7,024 nt of DNA from Candidatus Methylomirabilota bacterium (GTDB lineage: Bacteria; Methylomirabilota; Methylomirabilia; Methylomirabilales; Methylomirabilaceae). Positions 1 to 6,820 of this stretch are shown in pieces. Under the pieces are notes generated by a model. That model ran no database searches. It was not told the origin of the DNA and saw only the letters and a program-made list of their open reading frames with translations. Position 1 is the stretch's first letter. Each line of letters begins with the position of its first letter. The stretch spans positions 1-7,024 of the forward strand of contig JAGWRQ010000110.1 in the NCBI GenBank assembly GCA_028869615.1, read 5' to 3'. Position numbers and translations under genes: made by a program.

Positions 1-654
1 CGGCGCCACAAACAGCTCCTCCATGATCCAGAAGGTGTGGCCCCACTCGTTCAGCGCCACATTCACAAAGATCATCGCAGGGCCGCCGACCGTCAGGATG
101 AACGGCAGGGAGTGCGCTTTAGCAAACAGGGGGATTCGAGTCCTGGCCCACATGTAGGCGTTGATCCCGATGATGATGTAGATCGGGTAGCTGAGATAGA
201 ACTCGATGATGTGGCTCGGCGTAAAGTCCGTATCGCGGATCACCGTCTGGTGCCAGGTCCCGTCCTGCTCGGTAAAGAAGCTGGCGCCCCAATAGACGGC
301 CCAGGCGAACGTCACGATCCACATCCCGAGACCCCAAAACCGCCTCAACTCCTCCTCCGGCGTGATTCGATCCAGATTCCGGTCGCGGGTCTTCCAGATG
401 TAGCCCAAAGTGAAGGTCAGCACCGACGCCTCGATGATCAACTCGCCGATGAGCATATTCCACCAGTAAACCCGGAAGTCCTCAGAGAAGAAGTCAAGGC
501 CTTTCGACCATGAGAAGTACTGCTGGTAAATCCGAATCAGGATGTAGAAGATGCTGATAGCTACCTGGCATTTAAAGAAGGTGCCCCAGCCAAACATCTG
601 TTCGGCCGACTCAGCACGCTTAGCAGGTGCGGCTTCTGTCCTGTACTGTGCCAT
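1..654 (-). CDS. pmoC: Particulate methane monooxygenase subunit C (PmoC/AmoC family), 3' end outside window
   Basis: Integral membrane subunit of the copper membrane monooxygenase that oxidises methane to methanol (or ammonia, in AmoC). I translated the minus strand from 654: 218 residues are visible, starting MAQYRTEAAPAKRAES and still open at the window edge. The family's metal ligands are present with exact spacing: D131 and H135 in DGTWH, H148 in FTPSH, N202 and H206 in NEWGH. They match Asp156/His160/His173 and Asn227/His231 of Methylococcus PmoC, including the 54-residue gap between H148 and N202. The next ligand (His245 equivalent) would fall two residues past the edge. Hydrophobic spans lie near 27-41, 60-92, 105-128, 149-172 and 182-201. 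A strong Shine-Dalgarno, AAGGAGG (664-670), sits 9 nt before the ATG. pmoA and pmoB should follow outside the window. AmoC or PxmC remain possible; PmoC is preferred from context. Confidence 0.95.
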   Translation of the reverse strand, partial: MAQYRTEAAPAKRAESAEQMFGWGTFFKCQVAISIFYILIRIYQQYFSWSKGLDFFSEDFRVYWWNMLIGELIIEASVLTFTLGYIWKTRDRNLDRITPEEELRRFWGLGMWIVTFAWAVYWGASFFTEQDGTWHQTVIRDTDFTPSHIIEFYLSYPIYIIIGINAYMWARTRIPLFAKAHSLPFILTVGGPAMIFVNVALNEWGHTFWIMEELFVAP

Positions 655-663
655 TCGATTCTT

Positions 664-670
664 CCTCCTT
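664..670 (-). promoter_or_regulatory. Shine-Dalgarno of pmoC
   Basis: The minus strand reads AAGGAGG followed by nine bases and then ATG at 654. It fixes the pmoC start; no other in-frame start nearby has such a site. Confidence 0.85.
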
Positions 671-750
671 ACACTCTGATCAATTTACATACATAGACTG
701 TACTACTCTCGAGACCGCTTATCTTCCTACGTTCTGTTGACGCTGATTCT

Positions 751-760
751 CACCTCCTTT
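751..760 (-). promoter_or_regulatory. Orphan Shine-Dalgarno-like sequence in the pmoC leader
   Basis: The minus strand reads AAAGGAGGTG, fully complementary to the 16S anti-SD core. It lies about 100 nt upstream of the pmoC start. No ATG follows at a usable distance, and the overlapping GTG frame closes after eight codons. It may be chance, a ribosome standby site or the relic of a leader peptide. Confidence 0.35.
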
Positions 761-847
761 GTCGCCACTGACGTAACCGGGTTAGGTTTGAGGTCGTTGT
801 TGATCCGGGAAAATCGCTCTTCGGAAACTCCGTTTTAAGAGACCTTT

Positions 848-877
848 AGCATATGCCGCCATCGGAACCCCTGTCAA
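848..877 (-). promoter_or_regulatory. Candidate sigma-70-type promoter for pmoC
   Basis: On the minus strand a perfect -35 hexamer TTGACA (877-872) is followed after 18 bp by TATGCT (853-848), a 4/6 match to TATAAT. Transcription would start near 841, giving a leader of about 190 nt. pmoCAB of several proteobacterial methanotrophs is driven by sigma-70-type promoters with long leaders, which fits. It is a sequence match only. Confidence 0.55.
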
Positions 878-956
878 GACCTTTTTACCGCCCGAACCCA
901 GTTCCAACTTCAACCCCGTTCACACCTGCCCACTGGACAATTTGTAATTTAAACTA

Positions 957-974
957 CGCAAGGATGATGCCAAA
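957..974 (-). promoter_or_regulatory. Candidate sigma-54 (-24/-12) promoter for pmoC
   Basis: The minus strand reads TTTGGCATCATCCTTGCG. It has the invariant GG (971-970) and GC (959-958) separated by exactly 10 bp, within TGGCAT-N5-TTGC (consensus TGGCAC-N5-TTGCW). The predicted start is near 946, about 290 nt before pmoC. The only other gene beside this gap encodes a sigma-54-dependent activator, which raises the chance that it is real. Deviations are T for C at the end of the -24 box and G after the -12 TTGC. Confidence 0.55.
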
Positions 975-1071
975 CGTGGTTACAATCCGAACCCATTCTG
1001 CTCCCACCTGTGAAATCAAGCAGTTCAAACGATGACTTAGAGGGAGACCCAGCCAGTCGCTAGAGAATTCA

Positions 1072-1098
1072 TAGTTAATTTTTGGGTAATTTTAACTA
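1072..1098. repeat. Inverted repeat TAGTTAA / TTAACTA, possible activator site
   Basis: TAGTTAA at 1072-1078 is matched by its perfect complement TTAACTA at 1092-1098. The arms are 20 bp apart, two helical turns, in an AT-rich patch. The centre lies about 140 bp upstream of the start predicted for the -24/-12 promoter, the usual range for a sigma-54 enhancer. Fis-type domains bind such dyads as dimers. It is a site only by position and symmetry. Confidence 0.35.
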
Positions 1099-1115
1099 GT
1101 ACGTCCCACGCTGCA

Positions 1116-1138
1116 ACACCTGTCCACCGACACCTGTC
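1116..1138. repeat. Direct repeat of ACACCTGTC next to the activator stop codon
   Basis: ACACCTGTC occurs at 1116-1124 and again, identical, at 1130-1138, with 14-bp periodicity. The second copy abuts the stop codon of the activator gene (1139-1141). It could be a tandem protein-binding site upstream of pmoC, or the trace of a mobile-element end; the sequence alone does not decide. Confidence 0.4.
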
Positions 1139-2794
1139 TCAGGCTGAGTCAATCTGCGTCTGCCGTTTCAGCCCGAACTGCTCCAGCTTGCGGTACAGCG
1201 TACTGCGGGAGATGCCGAGCTGCGCGGCCGCCTGCGAGAGGTTGCCCGCGCACTGCTGGACGATCTGGCAGATGAGCTGCCGTTCGGTCTGGGCCAGCCA
1301 CCCGCCGGGCGCCGGGCGCTCCGCTTCCCCGCGCGTGGTGCGGATCACCGCCGGAAAGTCCTCCCAGCGAATCTCCGGCCGCGGCAAGAGGACCCCGACC
1401 TGCTGCAAGACATTGCGCAGCTCCCGGACATTGCCGGGCCACGGATACGGGGTGAGCGCCAGGGCGCGCAGCGCCTCCTCGGTAAAGCGCAAGTCCGGGC
1501 AGTGCAGCGCGGCGGCCACGTCGGTCAGAAACGAGGCGGCCAGCAAGGGGATATCCTCCCGCCGCTCCCGCAAGGGGGGCAGGTGGATCGAGATGACATT
1601 GAGGCGGTAGTACAAGTCCTCCCGAAACAGCCCCTTGGCGACCTCTTTGAGCAGGTCTTTATTGGTGGCGGCAATGATGCGGACATCGAGCGGGACCGGC
1701 TGGCCGCTGCCGAGCCGGGTCAACTCCTGCTGCTCCAGCACGCGCAGGAGCGCCACCTGCGTGCTGGGGGCGCACTCGCTGACCTCATCGAGGAAGATCG
1801 TGCCGCCCTGGGCCTCTTCGAACCGGCCCGGCCGGCCGCCTTTGCGCGCCCCGGTGAAGGTGCCCTCTTCGTAGCCGAACAGCTCGGACTCGATCAGCTC
1901 CCGGGGGATGGCGCCGCAGTTGACCGCGATGAACGGCTGGAGCGCGCGGGGGGAGCTGGCGTGGATGGCGTGGGCGAGCATCTCTTTGCCGGTCCCCGAC
2001 TCCCCCGCGATCAGGACGGAGAGGGTGTTGCCGGCGGCGATCAGGCCGATCTTGGTGGCGTTGCGGAAGGCGGCGGAGGCGCCCACCAGATCGGCAAAGG
2101 TGTACTTGGCCCCGACGACGACCGCCTTGGGCTTGCGGGCGGGGGGCGGGTCGAGGCGGGGGGCGGCGGGGAAGAGCAGCGCGGCGGCGGGCGGGCCGGC
2201 GCGCAGCGCCACGCCCCACGCGGTGAGTAGCCGACCGCTGTGTCGACCGTAGACCTTGACCTCCTGCGGGATCGGCGACCCACGCGTCAGGAGGACGCGG
2301 CCGATCTCGGGTAGGTCCGGGTAGGCGGCCACGGACGGCGCAGCCGGGTCGAGCTGCAGCAGGTGGGCGGCGGCCCGGTTGCACAGCAGCACCTGCCCCT
2401 GGGCGTCCAGCACCAGCAGGCCGTCGCTCAGGTAATCGGCAACCACGCCGAGCGGCCCGAAGAGCCCCTCGGCGAGGACCTTTGGGCGCACGGGCGGCGC
2501 GAGGAGCGAGCCCGCCAGCAGTTCAATCACCAGATCGCTTTTGACGTGCGTGCGACAGAGCAGGACGTGGCCCTGAGCCTGTTCGCTCGCGGAGAGCACG
2601 TGCGCCGGCGGCTCGACCAGGGAGACCTGGCCGCTACGGACCCGAGCTTTGCACCCGCCGCACTCCCCATCCGCACAGCGGTAGTCCACCAGGCGCAAGC
2701 CCTGCCGCAGGGCGTACTGCAGGATCGGCTCGGTCGCCTCACACTCGATGGTGATGCCCAGCGGTTCAAATCGGACCTTGCGCTTGCGCGTCAT
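1139..2794 (-). CDS. Ferredoxin-PAS-AAA+-Fis sigma-54-dependent transcriptional activator
   Basis: Cytoplasmic enhancer-binding protein, 551 aa from the chosen start. Residues 1-95 form a plant-type [2Fe-2S] ferredoxin domain with C40-x4-C45-x2-C48 and C80, resembling the N-terminal electron-transfer domain of oxygenase reductases (MmoC/XylA type). Residues about 115-205 look like a PAS domain, followed by an Ala/Pro-rich linker (205-222). The AAA+ core has Walker A GESGTGKE (264-271), the sigma-54 loop as GTFTGA (311-316, normally GAFTGA), Walker B IFLDE (333-337), FREDLYYRL (390-398) and WPGNVREL (452-459). A Fis-type helix-turn-helix fills about 501-542. The ATG at 2794 is preferred because TTGAGG lies about 9 nt before it and the ferredoxin fold starts at once. 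A start at 2917 would add 41 low-complexity residues and overlap the helicase stop. It most likely regulates the adjacent pmoC in response to redox state or oxygen; this is inference. No specific gene name is recognised. Confidence 0.93.
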   Translation of the reverse strand: MTRKRKVRFEPLGITIECEATEPILQYALRQGLRLVDYRCADGECGGCKARVRSGQVSLVEPPAHVLSASEQAQGHVLLCRTHVKSDLVIELLAGSLLAPPVRPKVLAEGLFGPLGVVADYLSDGLLVLDAQGQVLLCNRAAAHLLQLDPAAPSVAAYPDLPEIGRVLLTRGSPIPQEVKVYGRHSGRLLTAWGVALRAGPPAAALLFPAAPRLDPPPARKPKAVVVGAKYTFADLVGASAAFRNATKIGLIAAGNTLSVLIAGESGTGKEMLAHAIHASSPRALQPFIAVNCGAIPRELIESELFGYEEGTFTGARKGGRPGRFEEAQGGTIFLDEVSECAPSTQVALLRVLEQQELTRLGSGQPVPLDVRIIAATNKDLLKEVAKGLFREDLYYRLNVISIHLPPLRERREDIPLLAASFLTDVAAALHCPDLRFTEEALRALALTPYPWPGNVRELRNVLQQVGVLLPRPEIRWEDFPAVIRTTRGEAERPAPGGWLAQTERQLICQIVQQCAGNLSQAAAQLGISRSTLYRKLEQFGLKRQTQIDSA

Positions 2795-2913: not shown

Positions 2914-4146
2914 TCACACATCCTCGGTCTTCGTCGATTTCCGGCCCTGGCGGACACTATTACGATTCTTAGAAGCTGTGGTTGCACTAGCAGCCGTCCC
3001 TGGCGCAAACACCGATTCGTCCGGCCATTGCACGGGGATCTTGAACCCGATATATTTCTCGATCGCGTCAAGCGACAGCACATATTCCTCGTCAGCCAAG
3101 CTGATCGCCTTACCGGCCGCCCCGGCCCGCGCCGTTCGTCCGATCCGGTGGACGTAATCTTCCGGATCCTGGGGGAGGTCGTAGTTGATCACATGACTGA
3201 CCGCCTCGACATGCAGCCCGCGCGATGCAACGTCGGTCGCCACCAGGATCGGCAGCGTGCCCGCTTTAAACTTGGCAATAATCCGAAGGCGCTTGCGCTG
3301 ATCGATACTCCCGCTGATCATATCGGCCCGGAAGCCGCACCGGACCAGTTTATCGGTGAGCCGCTCGGCGCCCTGCCTGGTATTCGAAAAGATGAGGATC
3401 CGTTGCCATGCCTCGCGCTGGAGCAGCCAGCGCAGCAGCCGAAACTTCTCTTGCTTCTCGACGTGAAAGAGCAGGTGTTCAACCTTGTCCACCGTGACCT
3501 GCTCGGGAGAAATGGCGACCTTGATCGGGTTATTCATAAATTCATACGACAGTTCCATCTCTCGGAAGGAGAGCGTCGCCGAGAAGAGGAATGACTGGCG
3601 CTTATGGTAGGGGGGAAGTCGTCTCAGCAGAAAGCGAAGGTCTTTGATGAATCCCATATCGAACATCCGGTCGGCCTCGTCCACAACCAGGACCTCGACT
3701 TGAGAGAGTTCGTAGACCCCCTGTTTGAAGTAATCGATGAGCCGCCCGGGTGTCCCGATGAGGATGTCTACGTTCTGTTGGAGCGCGTCCCGCTGTTTTT
3801 GATAGTCCACTCCTCCATAGACGGCGAGCCGCGTCAGGCCGGTGAATCCACCCAGCAGTTCCGCATCCCACAAGATTTGCACGGCCAGCTCACGTGTGGG
3901 GGCCAGGACCAGGGCGCGGGGGGCGCCAGGAAGCGTGGGACGCCTTGAGCGGAGCAGTCTGACGAAGAGGGGGATCAGGAAGGCGGCCGTCTTGCCGCTG
4001 CCGGTCTGGGCTTGCCCGGCGATATCTTTCCCCGCCAGGGTGAGCGGCAGTGTCTCGGCCTGGATCGGCGTGCACTGAGTGAAGCCGGCTGTCTCTATCC
4101 CCTTACGAATCGACTCGGGAAGCGAGAAGGCGTCGAAGGTCGTCAT
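2914..4146 (-). CDS. rhlB: RhlB-like DEAD-box ATP-dependent RNA helicase
   Basis: ATP-dependent RNA helicase, 410 aa, cytoplasmic; RhlB-type enzymes unwind RNA for the degradosome and in cold adaptation. All superfamily 2 DEAD motifs are visible: Q motif GFTQCTPIQ (21-29), motif I AQTGSGKT (46-53), Ia PTRELA (83-88), TPGR (132-135), DEAD (156-159), SAT (189-191), VATDVASRGLH (302-312) and HRIGRTARAG (333-342, with Ala where Gly is usual). Several stretches (IKDLRFLLRRLPP, KRLRII, YVHRIGRT) are close to the E. coli RhlB sequence as I remember it. The tail after about 375 is short, low-complexity and basic, as expected for an RNA-binding extension. The ATG has no clear Shine-Dalgarno. A good promoter lies about 90 nt upstream. 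The activator gene follows 119 bp downstream on the same strand, so read-through is possible. Confidence 0.94.
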   Translation of the reverse strand: MTTFDAFSLPESIRKGIETAGFTQCTPIQAETLPLTLAGKDIAGQAQTGSGKTAAFLIPLFVRLLRSRRPTLPGAPRALVLAPTRELAVQILWDAELLGGFTGLTRLAVYGGVDYQKQRDALQQNVDILIGTPGRLIDYFKQGVYELSQVEVLVVDEADRMFDMGFIKDLRFLLRRLPPYHKRQSFLFSATLSFREMELSYEFMNNPIKVAISPEQVTVDKVEHLLFHVEKQEKFRLLRWLLQREAWQRILIFSNTRQGAERLTDKLVRCGFRADMISGSIDQRKRLRIIAKFKAGTLPILVATDVASRGLHVEAVSHVINYDLPQDPEDYVHRIGRTARAGAAGKAISLADEEYVLSLDAIEKYIGFKIPVQWPDESVFAPGTAASATTASKNRNSVRQGRKSTKTEDV

Positions 4147-5887: not shown

Positions 5888-5936
5888 GCCGACCCGTTTT
5901 TGCAAAGGCATGTGCAGTGTGCTAGTGTGTCGTGTG
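5888..5936 (+). repeat. 49-bp promoter-bearing repeat, copy 1
   Basis: This element matches 6772-6820 at 45 of 49 positions without gaps. Both copies are intergenic, in the same orientation, just before a gene or operon (here crcB). The four differences are at 5905, 5906, 5909 and 5929. Conservation extends upstream of the -35 box into GCCGACCCG, more than a promoter alone would require. Confidence 0.85.
5900..5928 (+). promoter_or_regulatory. Promoter of the crcB-DUF190 operon, within repeat copy 1
   Basis: TTGCAA (5900-5905) and TAGTGT (5923-5928) are separated by 17 bp, the standard sigma-70 layout; the -10 keeps T, A and the final T. The predicted start near 5935 falls in the dyad GTGTC-GTGT-GACAC (5927-5940), a possible operator. 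That dyad is not kept in repeat copy 2. Confidence 0.55.
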
Positions 5937-6771: not shown

Positions 6772-6820
6772 GCCGACCCGTTTTTGCATTGGTATGTGCA
6801 GTGTGCTAGTGTTTCGTGTG
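6772..6820 (+). repeat. 49-bp promoter-bearing repeat, copy 2
   Basis: Second copy of the element at 5888-5936, 45 of 49 bases identical, same orientation, in the gap between the DUF190 gene and the CPCC protein gene. Flanks on both sides are unrelated to those of copy 1, so the unit is about 49 bp. Confidence 0.85.
6784..6812 (+). promoter_or_regulatory. Promoter of the CPCC protein gene, within repeat copy 2
   Basis: TTGCAT (6784-6789) and TAGTGT (6807-6812) with a 17-bp spacer, at the same offsets as in copy 1. The predicted start near 6819 leaves a leader of about 27 nt before the ATG at 6846, a plausible distance. Confidence 0.55.

Follow-up and report, generated by a model that had tools for sequence, protein, structure and literature searches.

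Locus and domain architecture

The window analysed here is the entire contig C42 (7,024 bases) of genome G000, which belongs to the genus Methylomirabilis, and its minus strand carries a gene for a predicted sigma-54 activator next to pmoC, a subunit gene of the particulate methane monooxygenase (pMMO). The regulator gene (1139..2794, ATG at 2794) encodes 551 aa that were assigned, using Pfam, NCBIfam, PDB and a family alignment, to a Fer2 ferredoxin domain, a PAS-like domain, a sigma-54 AAA+ core and a Fis-type helix-turn-helix. As an earlier note made from the letters of this DNA had reported, the gene adjoins pmoC in the same direction: 484 bases downstream lie the first 218 residues of pmoC (1..654, minus strand; PF04896, 2e-84), the gene being cut by the contig end. 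The pmoA gene of G000 was found on another contig, C130, at the end of which 16 residues are retained that look like the terminus of PmoC (68.8% identical), as would be expected if assembly had split a pmoCAB operon.

All domains were located on the minus strand. The Fer2 domain (PF00111, 8.6e-12; residues 10-85, 2540..2767) holds the four cysteines C40, C45, C48 and C80 (CX4CX2CX31C) exactly where the earlier note had placed them. The AAA+ core (residues about 230-488, 1331..2107; Sigma54_activat 8.3e-65 at 237-404, with an AAA lid) carries Walker A (GESGTGKE, 264), GTFTGA (311-316) and FLDE (334); Walker A and Walker B both lie within this sigma-54 AAA+ domain, and the GAFTGA loop that contacts sigma-54 is present with one letter changed. 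The core matched NifA and DmpR structures in a PDB sequence search. The DNA-binding domain of the Fis type found in enhancer-binding proteins (HTH_8, 3.9e-13; residues 500-540, 1175..1297) was recovered by Pfam and by predicted structure. In the whole-protein Pfam scan the Fer2, core, lid and helix-turn-helix matches were all above their curated cut-offs. NCBIfam returned sigma-54 activators, none of them above an equivalog cut-off among the 25 of 50 matches listed.

The PAS-like segment (residues about 109-211, 2162..2470) proposed in the earlier note is borderline by profile: the PAS_8 cut-off is 21.8 bits, and the match reached 20.7 bits when the full protein was scanned and 21.9 bits when only residues 1-230 were. 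Its predicted fold supports the assignment. The first structure model had a mean predicted local distance difference test score of 44.5, and one built from a deeper alignment reached 79.8. A Pfam scan of residues 1-230 (E up to 1) gave six families, namely Fer2, four PAS models and one cyclase-sensor model, with no receiver domain (PF00072) among them. Judged by its domains, the regulator is a one-component activator and not a response regulator.

The closest solved sequence to the ferredoxin domain was methane monooxygenase component C (1jq4, 3.1e-11), followed by P450 and toluene-monooxygenase reductases and then by plain ferredoxins and benzoate-dioxygenase reductase. These nearest solved relatives bear out the earlier remark that the domain resembles that of oxygenase reductases.

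Elements between the regulator and pmoC

The gap between the two genes was aligned for six genomes in full and for part of a seventh (G030), and 184 of 487 window columns were invariant across the six full rows. In these six genomes the gap carries a tandem repeat, a -24/-12 box (TTTGGCAYCATCCTTGC) and a TTGACA promoter.

The tandem GACAG-N-TGT repeat (1112..1138, minus strand) directly follows the regulator stop codon, is aligned in the 6 genomes and is proposed as the activator binding site (enhancer). Allowing up to 3 mismatches, its pattern gave 17 matches in 9 of the 15 genomes of the genus, and the reversed pattern gave 3. Ten distinct sites lie directly after regulator sequence, two of these matching on the other strand too; three lie at contig ends that start with the repeat (G021 C83, G026 C2 and C19), and the only two elsewhere (G030 C126, G032 C74) have 3 mismatches each. 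Away from copies of this regulator the repeat is nearly absent.

The box, TTTGGCATCATCCTTGC in the window (958..974, minus strand), is the proposed sigma-54 promoter of pmoCAB, and the repeat stands 150-165 bases upstream of it, a usual distance for an enhancer. Its aligned form, GTTTGGCATCATCCTTG, is the best conserved stretch in the distal half of the gap, with 15 of 17 positions of the -24/-12 element invariant. The core TTTGGCAYNATCNTTGC has a single match in each of five genomes (G000, G022, G025, G026 and G032), every time upstream of pmoC; the remaining 10 genomes of the genus have no match, and the reversed-pattern control gave 0. RpoN was found in 14 of the 15 genomes; the genome of the window encodes this sigma factor and has the proposed -24/-12 promoter close to the regulator gene.

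A proposed second promoter of the sigma-70 type lies nearer pmoC (848..877, minus strand), with TTGACA at 872-877, kept in 7 of 7 aligned sequences, and TATGCT at 848-853. The pmoC leader also contains AAAGGAGGTGA (750..760, minus strand), which is invariant in 7 of 7 sequences and resembles a ribosome-binding site; it sits about 100 bases ahead of pmoC and is not followed by a start codon at a usual distance. The same element is nearly kept at an extra pmoC of G025.

Distribution and linkage to pmo genes

Ninety-five genomes of the phylum were searched, 15 of the genus and 80 outside it. PmoC/AmoC was found in nine, eight of them within the genus (9 copies) and one outside (G037), in which the regulator was not found. 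A search with the N-terminus recovered the regulator in none of the 80 genomes outside the genus, and among the genomes searched it turned up only in this genus.

The end of the regulator lies directly upstream of five of the nine pmoC copies of the genus (G000, G022, the first copy of G025, G031 and G032). The pmoC contig of G026 starts at the repeat, just past the expected position of the regulator stop codon, and those of G030 and G034 start closer to pmoC than the repeat. The ninth is the extra copy of G025, a finished genome in one contig of 2,752,854 bases in which the main pmoC is followed by pmoA and pmoB. The gene that follows this extra pmoC is an 84% relative of the 254-residue gene after pmoB in the main cluster (L122:9003-10897, L123:3803-4567), and neither gene had a Pfam match.

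Within the genus, pmoA was found in 10 of 15 genomes and regulator sequence likewise in 10 of 15 (in G030 and G031 only its last 30-31 residues, at contig ends), with both in 9. G026 has pmoA with no regulator found, and in G023, G024, G028 and G029 neither was found.

Conservation and rarity of the regulator family

A family alignment (A1) was made of 24 members with identity down to 66%. C40, C45 and C80 are invariant in all 24 and C48 is kept in 23.

The protein searches needed shared five-residue words, by which divergent fusions could be missed. The whole-protein search scored 7,996 candidates; among the best 120 listed, 23 carry both Fer2 and Sigma54_activat (66 to 88% identical in the alignment), followed by two shortened members and then by a sharp drop to activators lacking Fer2. 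Residues 1-115 (543 candidates scored) returned 26 proteins, these being the same 23, two reductase-like proteins and the shortened P0024, and the N-terminus of the most divergent member (746 candidates scored) returned three family members only, the query included. The idea that the ferredoxin-sigma-54 layout is common was rejected, as the two N-terminal searches, made on a set of 5.8 billion proteins, gave it in this family alone. None of the 95 more distant activators in the whole-protein listing (P0026-P0120), of which 87 have a GAFTGA-type loop, carries a [2Fe-2S] motif ahead of the loop, and the same holds for 80 genome loci (the best 80 of 584 relatives; loop frame found in 76). The scan of genome contigs gave no close relative among those best 80 of 584. 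Elsewhere the phylum gave weak ferredoxin matches at 16 loci, spread over 15 genomes; these were dismissed as other proteins, with the sigma-54 motif in none of the 16 frames.

Source labels of the close protein relatives, where given, were two of Methylomirabilis/Methylomirabilota, one of NC10 and one of Verrucomicrobiae; we take the last (P0022, 88% identical) to be a mis-binned record.

A second locus and sensor-less forms

In G025 the regulator gene is present twice, the copies lying about 0.5 Mb apart. The two copies (L121:9315-11091 and L123:8409-10185) share a block of 1,777 bases with one mismatch (99.94% identical DNA), the repeat included, and encode identical proteins; the window copy is about 85% identical to them in DNA. 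Such near-identity suggests gene conversion or recent duplication. The second copy has a divergent histidine kinase/NtrC pair on one side and on the other a 299-residue gene (L121:11219-12118), which had no family match above cut-off and which we read as coiled-coil and outer-membrane-protein-like. The 299-residue gene was found in 10 of the 15 genomes of the genus, G000 not among them, and regulator sequence stands directly before it in 7 (G022, G025 and G030-G034). The finding that the earlier note had named as a refutation, homologues mostly away from pmo genes, was looked for: copies with a visible flank lie at pmoC or at this one second conserved locus, and the N-terminal search gave none in the 80 phylum genomes outside the genus.

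A sigma-54 promoter for the 299-residue gene was sought in ten upstream sequences (one of only 33 bases) and rejected, there being no common GG-N10-GC; scattered GG-N10-GC occur in 6 of the 10, with one common to G033 and G034.

In each of six genomes (G021, G022, G031, G032, G033 and G034) two contigs break off within the regulator gene. In G031, G032 (3' side), G033 and G034 the shared contig ends are exactly 127 or 141 identical bases, which we read as the ends that assemblers leave at repeats.

One copy, on G032 C41 (L135:2-244), jumps in frame from residue 30 to residue 213 of the window protein and so lacks the whole PAS domain and the greater part of the ferredoxin domain; its contig also carries the kinase/NtrC pair, about 7 kb apart. 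P0024, a metagenome protein of 370 aa, has the same layout, with core and DNA-binding domain intact. These forms suggest that the sensor may act as a brake. The regulator end at the second locus of G022 (L168:1-467, G022:C22) starts with a stretch like NtrC 314-354 (90%) and continues as regulator, and this junction is probably either a conversion tract or an assembly chimera.

Other features of the window

The upstream neighbour of the regulator is a DEAD-box RNA helicase, RhlB-like by Pfam and NCBIfam (2914..4146, minus strand), which is also the upstream neighbour in G021, G022, G025, G032, G033 and G034. Beyond it, the plus strand carries a small gene without a Pfam family, which we read as lipoprotein-like, and genes for a VTT-domain protein, CrcB and a DUF190 protein. 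The CrcB/DUF190 gene pair is flanked by the two copies of a 49-base direct repeat (5888-5936 and 6772-6820; 92% identical). A search of the window against Rfam (E up to 1) found nothing.

Discussion

The regulator described here is very likely a sigma-54 activator of pmoCAB in Methylomirabilis. Given that role, a redox or O2 function for its ferredoxin domain is likely. The reading we favour, and hold to be rather probable as a whole, is that a ferredoxin-bearing activator binds the repeat and turns on pmoCAB from the box under predicted [2Fe-2S] control. The Fis domain would bind the tandem repeat that follows the regulator's own stop codon, the DNA would loop between repeat and box, and the AAA+ ring would open the sigma-54 polymerase complex at the -24/-12 element, with the TTGACA promoter supplying basal transcription. 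More tentatively, the MmoC-like ferredoxin domain may take up a [2Fe-2S] cluster, and oxidation of the cluster once O2 becomes available, or its reaction with nitric oxide (NO), may lift a brake that ferredoxin and PAS domains place on the AAA+ core; a brake of this kind would suit the natural copies that are without both domains. The predicted [2Fe-2S] domain of the regulator is likely to read redox, O2 or NO. The earlier note had proposed that the protein reads cellular electron or oxygen status and sets pMMO transcription. The second part of that proposal now has synteny, box, repeat, RpoN and a distribution following pmo behind it, whereas the sensing part has the ferredoxin domain and its cysteines to draw on.

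Several observations weigh against this picture. The -24/-12 pattern in the window alone is at chance level (26 matches, 26.7 expected), and the case for the box therefore rests on its conservation and place. Two stretches with ribosome-binding-like sequence, closer to pmoC, equal the box in conservation. G031 departs at both elements: it has TTGT instead of TTGC at -12, and its repeat, degenerate in the first half, gave no match at up to 3 mismatches. The repeat is also found at the second regulator copy, with no common -24/-12 box after it. The extra pmoC of G025 has neither regulator, repeat nor box, and not all pmoC can therefore depend on the regulator. G027 has the regulator with pmoA not found (genome 80% complete), and G021 and G033 have pmoA with pmoC not found. 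At the protein level, P0017 has Gly in place of C48, the loop reads GTFTGA and not GAFTGA in 22 of the 24 family members (GAFTGA in P0009 and P0023), and the ferredoxin part of the better structure model is still of low confidence. Chance or mis-annotation was rejected, because the gene, its cysteines and the intergenic elements are conserved across genomes.

Three other explanations were weighed. If the TTGACA promoter alone drove pmoCAB, box and repeat would be minor or conditional and the regulator would mostly control its own gene or the second locus; TTGACA is indeed invariant in 7 of 7 sequences, the repeat lies inside the block common to the second copy, and pmo promoters in other organisms are of the sigma-70 type in the excerpts available from three papers (PMC3615186, PMC8782848, PMC12403871). 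Against this, no stretch in the distal half of the gap is better conserved than the box, and in the five genomes that match its pattern the only match is at pmoC; we hold this explanation to be improbable. A different signal at the same promoter has somewhat more to recommend it, although we still find it unlikely: the ferredoxin domain of the pmoCAB activator may sense iron-sulphur or iron supply or NO, and the PAS-like fold, which is present, may carry the main signal. Clusters of the Fer2 type are reactive towards NO and need a supply of iron, and Methylomirabilis organisms make NO from nitrite, but the closest relatives of the domain are the electron-transfer domains of oxygenase reductases.

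That the ferredoxin domain is a cluster-less relic or structural part, with regulation left to the amount of activator (two gene copies) or to a partner, would fit the loss of C48 in P0017 and the sensor-less copies in G032 C41 and P0024. It is hard to square with three invariant cysteines and a fourth that only one of 24 members, at identities down to 66%, has lost, and we regard it as quite improbable. Returning to the reading in which the activator turns on pmoCAB from the box, a broader version, for which the balance is about even, would put the copper methane monooxygenase of nitrite-driven, oxygen-making methanotrophs on a sigma-54 promoter with an activator that reads redox or O2 through a ferredoxin domain like that of the reductase of the soluble methane monooxygenase; a second near-identical copy, sensor-stripped in some species, would tune the same binding site.

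Control of pMMO expression is poorly known, and pmo is placed under sigma-70 in the portions of the literature consulted. If correct, the broader version would give the first sigma-54-controlled pmo operon and a new sensor class for sigma-54 activators, a ferredoxin-type redox sensor. Together, a dedicated activator and its conserved repeat and promoter would offer a methane-oxidation switch open to direct test, in organisms that generate O2 themselves and in which O2, NO and electrons are in competition. The regulator appears to be new: its sensor domain was not found elsewhere among one-component sigma-54 activators in the searches made. Titles and abstract openings of the open-access literature gave no recognisable pmo-linked or ferredoxin-fused sigma-54 activator, papers searched for likely locus tags of the regulator gave none, and the available parts of PMC3404531, PMC5623727, PMC4641369, PMC3543383 and PMC4831470 contained nothing on this regulator. 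The Methylomirabilis genomes paper describes the pmo genes, and the words 'sigma', 'promoter' and 'ferredoxin' do not occur in its main text (PMC6094997).

Comparison with known systems

Proteobacterial pmoCAB operons share the TTGACA-type promoter present here. According to the excerpts consulted, pMMO has been shown to use sigma-70 and the soluble enzyme sigma-54 (PMC8782848), sigma-70-like elements were given for pmoCAB of Methylosinus trichosporium (PMC3615186), and in Methylosinus sporium the genes of methane metabolism were preceded by RpoD motifs, RpoN motifs being found at nitrogen genes (PMC12403871). Unlike the locus described here, no -24/-12 box or sigma-54 activator was described for pmoCAB in these excerpts.

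MmoR is likewise a sigma-54 activator whose gene accompanies a methane monooxygenase operon that has a -24/-12 promoter, the motif being described at mmoX (PMC5874634, in part). MmoR, however, serves the iron-containing soluble enzyme and is encoded in or near mmo operons, whereas the present regulator lies upstream of pmoC of the copper enzyme; according to the same excerpt a GAF domain is present in the MmoR of two species and missing from that of two more, in contrast to the ferredoxin and PAS-like domains found here. Orthology with MmoR was rejected on this architecture and on place, the neighbour being pmoC and not an mmo operon.

NorR, NifA and DmpR resemble the regulator in having an N-terminal sensor, an AAA+ core and a Fis helix-turn-helix. 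Their sensors are a GAF domain with mononuclear iron in NorR, a GAF domain in NifA and an aromatic-binding V4R domain in DmpR, and they are not known to have a ferredoxin-type [2Fe-2S] sensor such as that predicted here. For the ferredoxin domain of the regulator the nearest sequence relatives are MmoC and other oxygenase reductases, which combine Fer2 with FAD and NAD (nicotinamide) domains and are electron-transfer enzymes, not transcription regulators.

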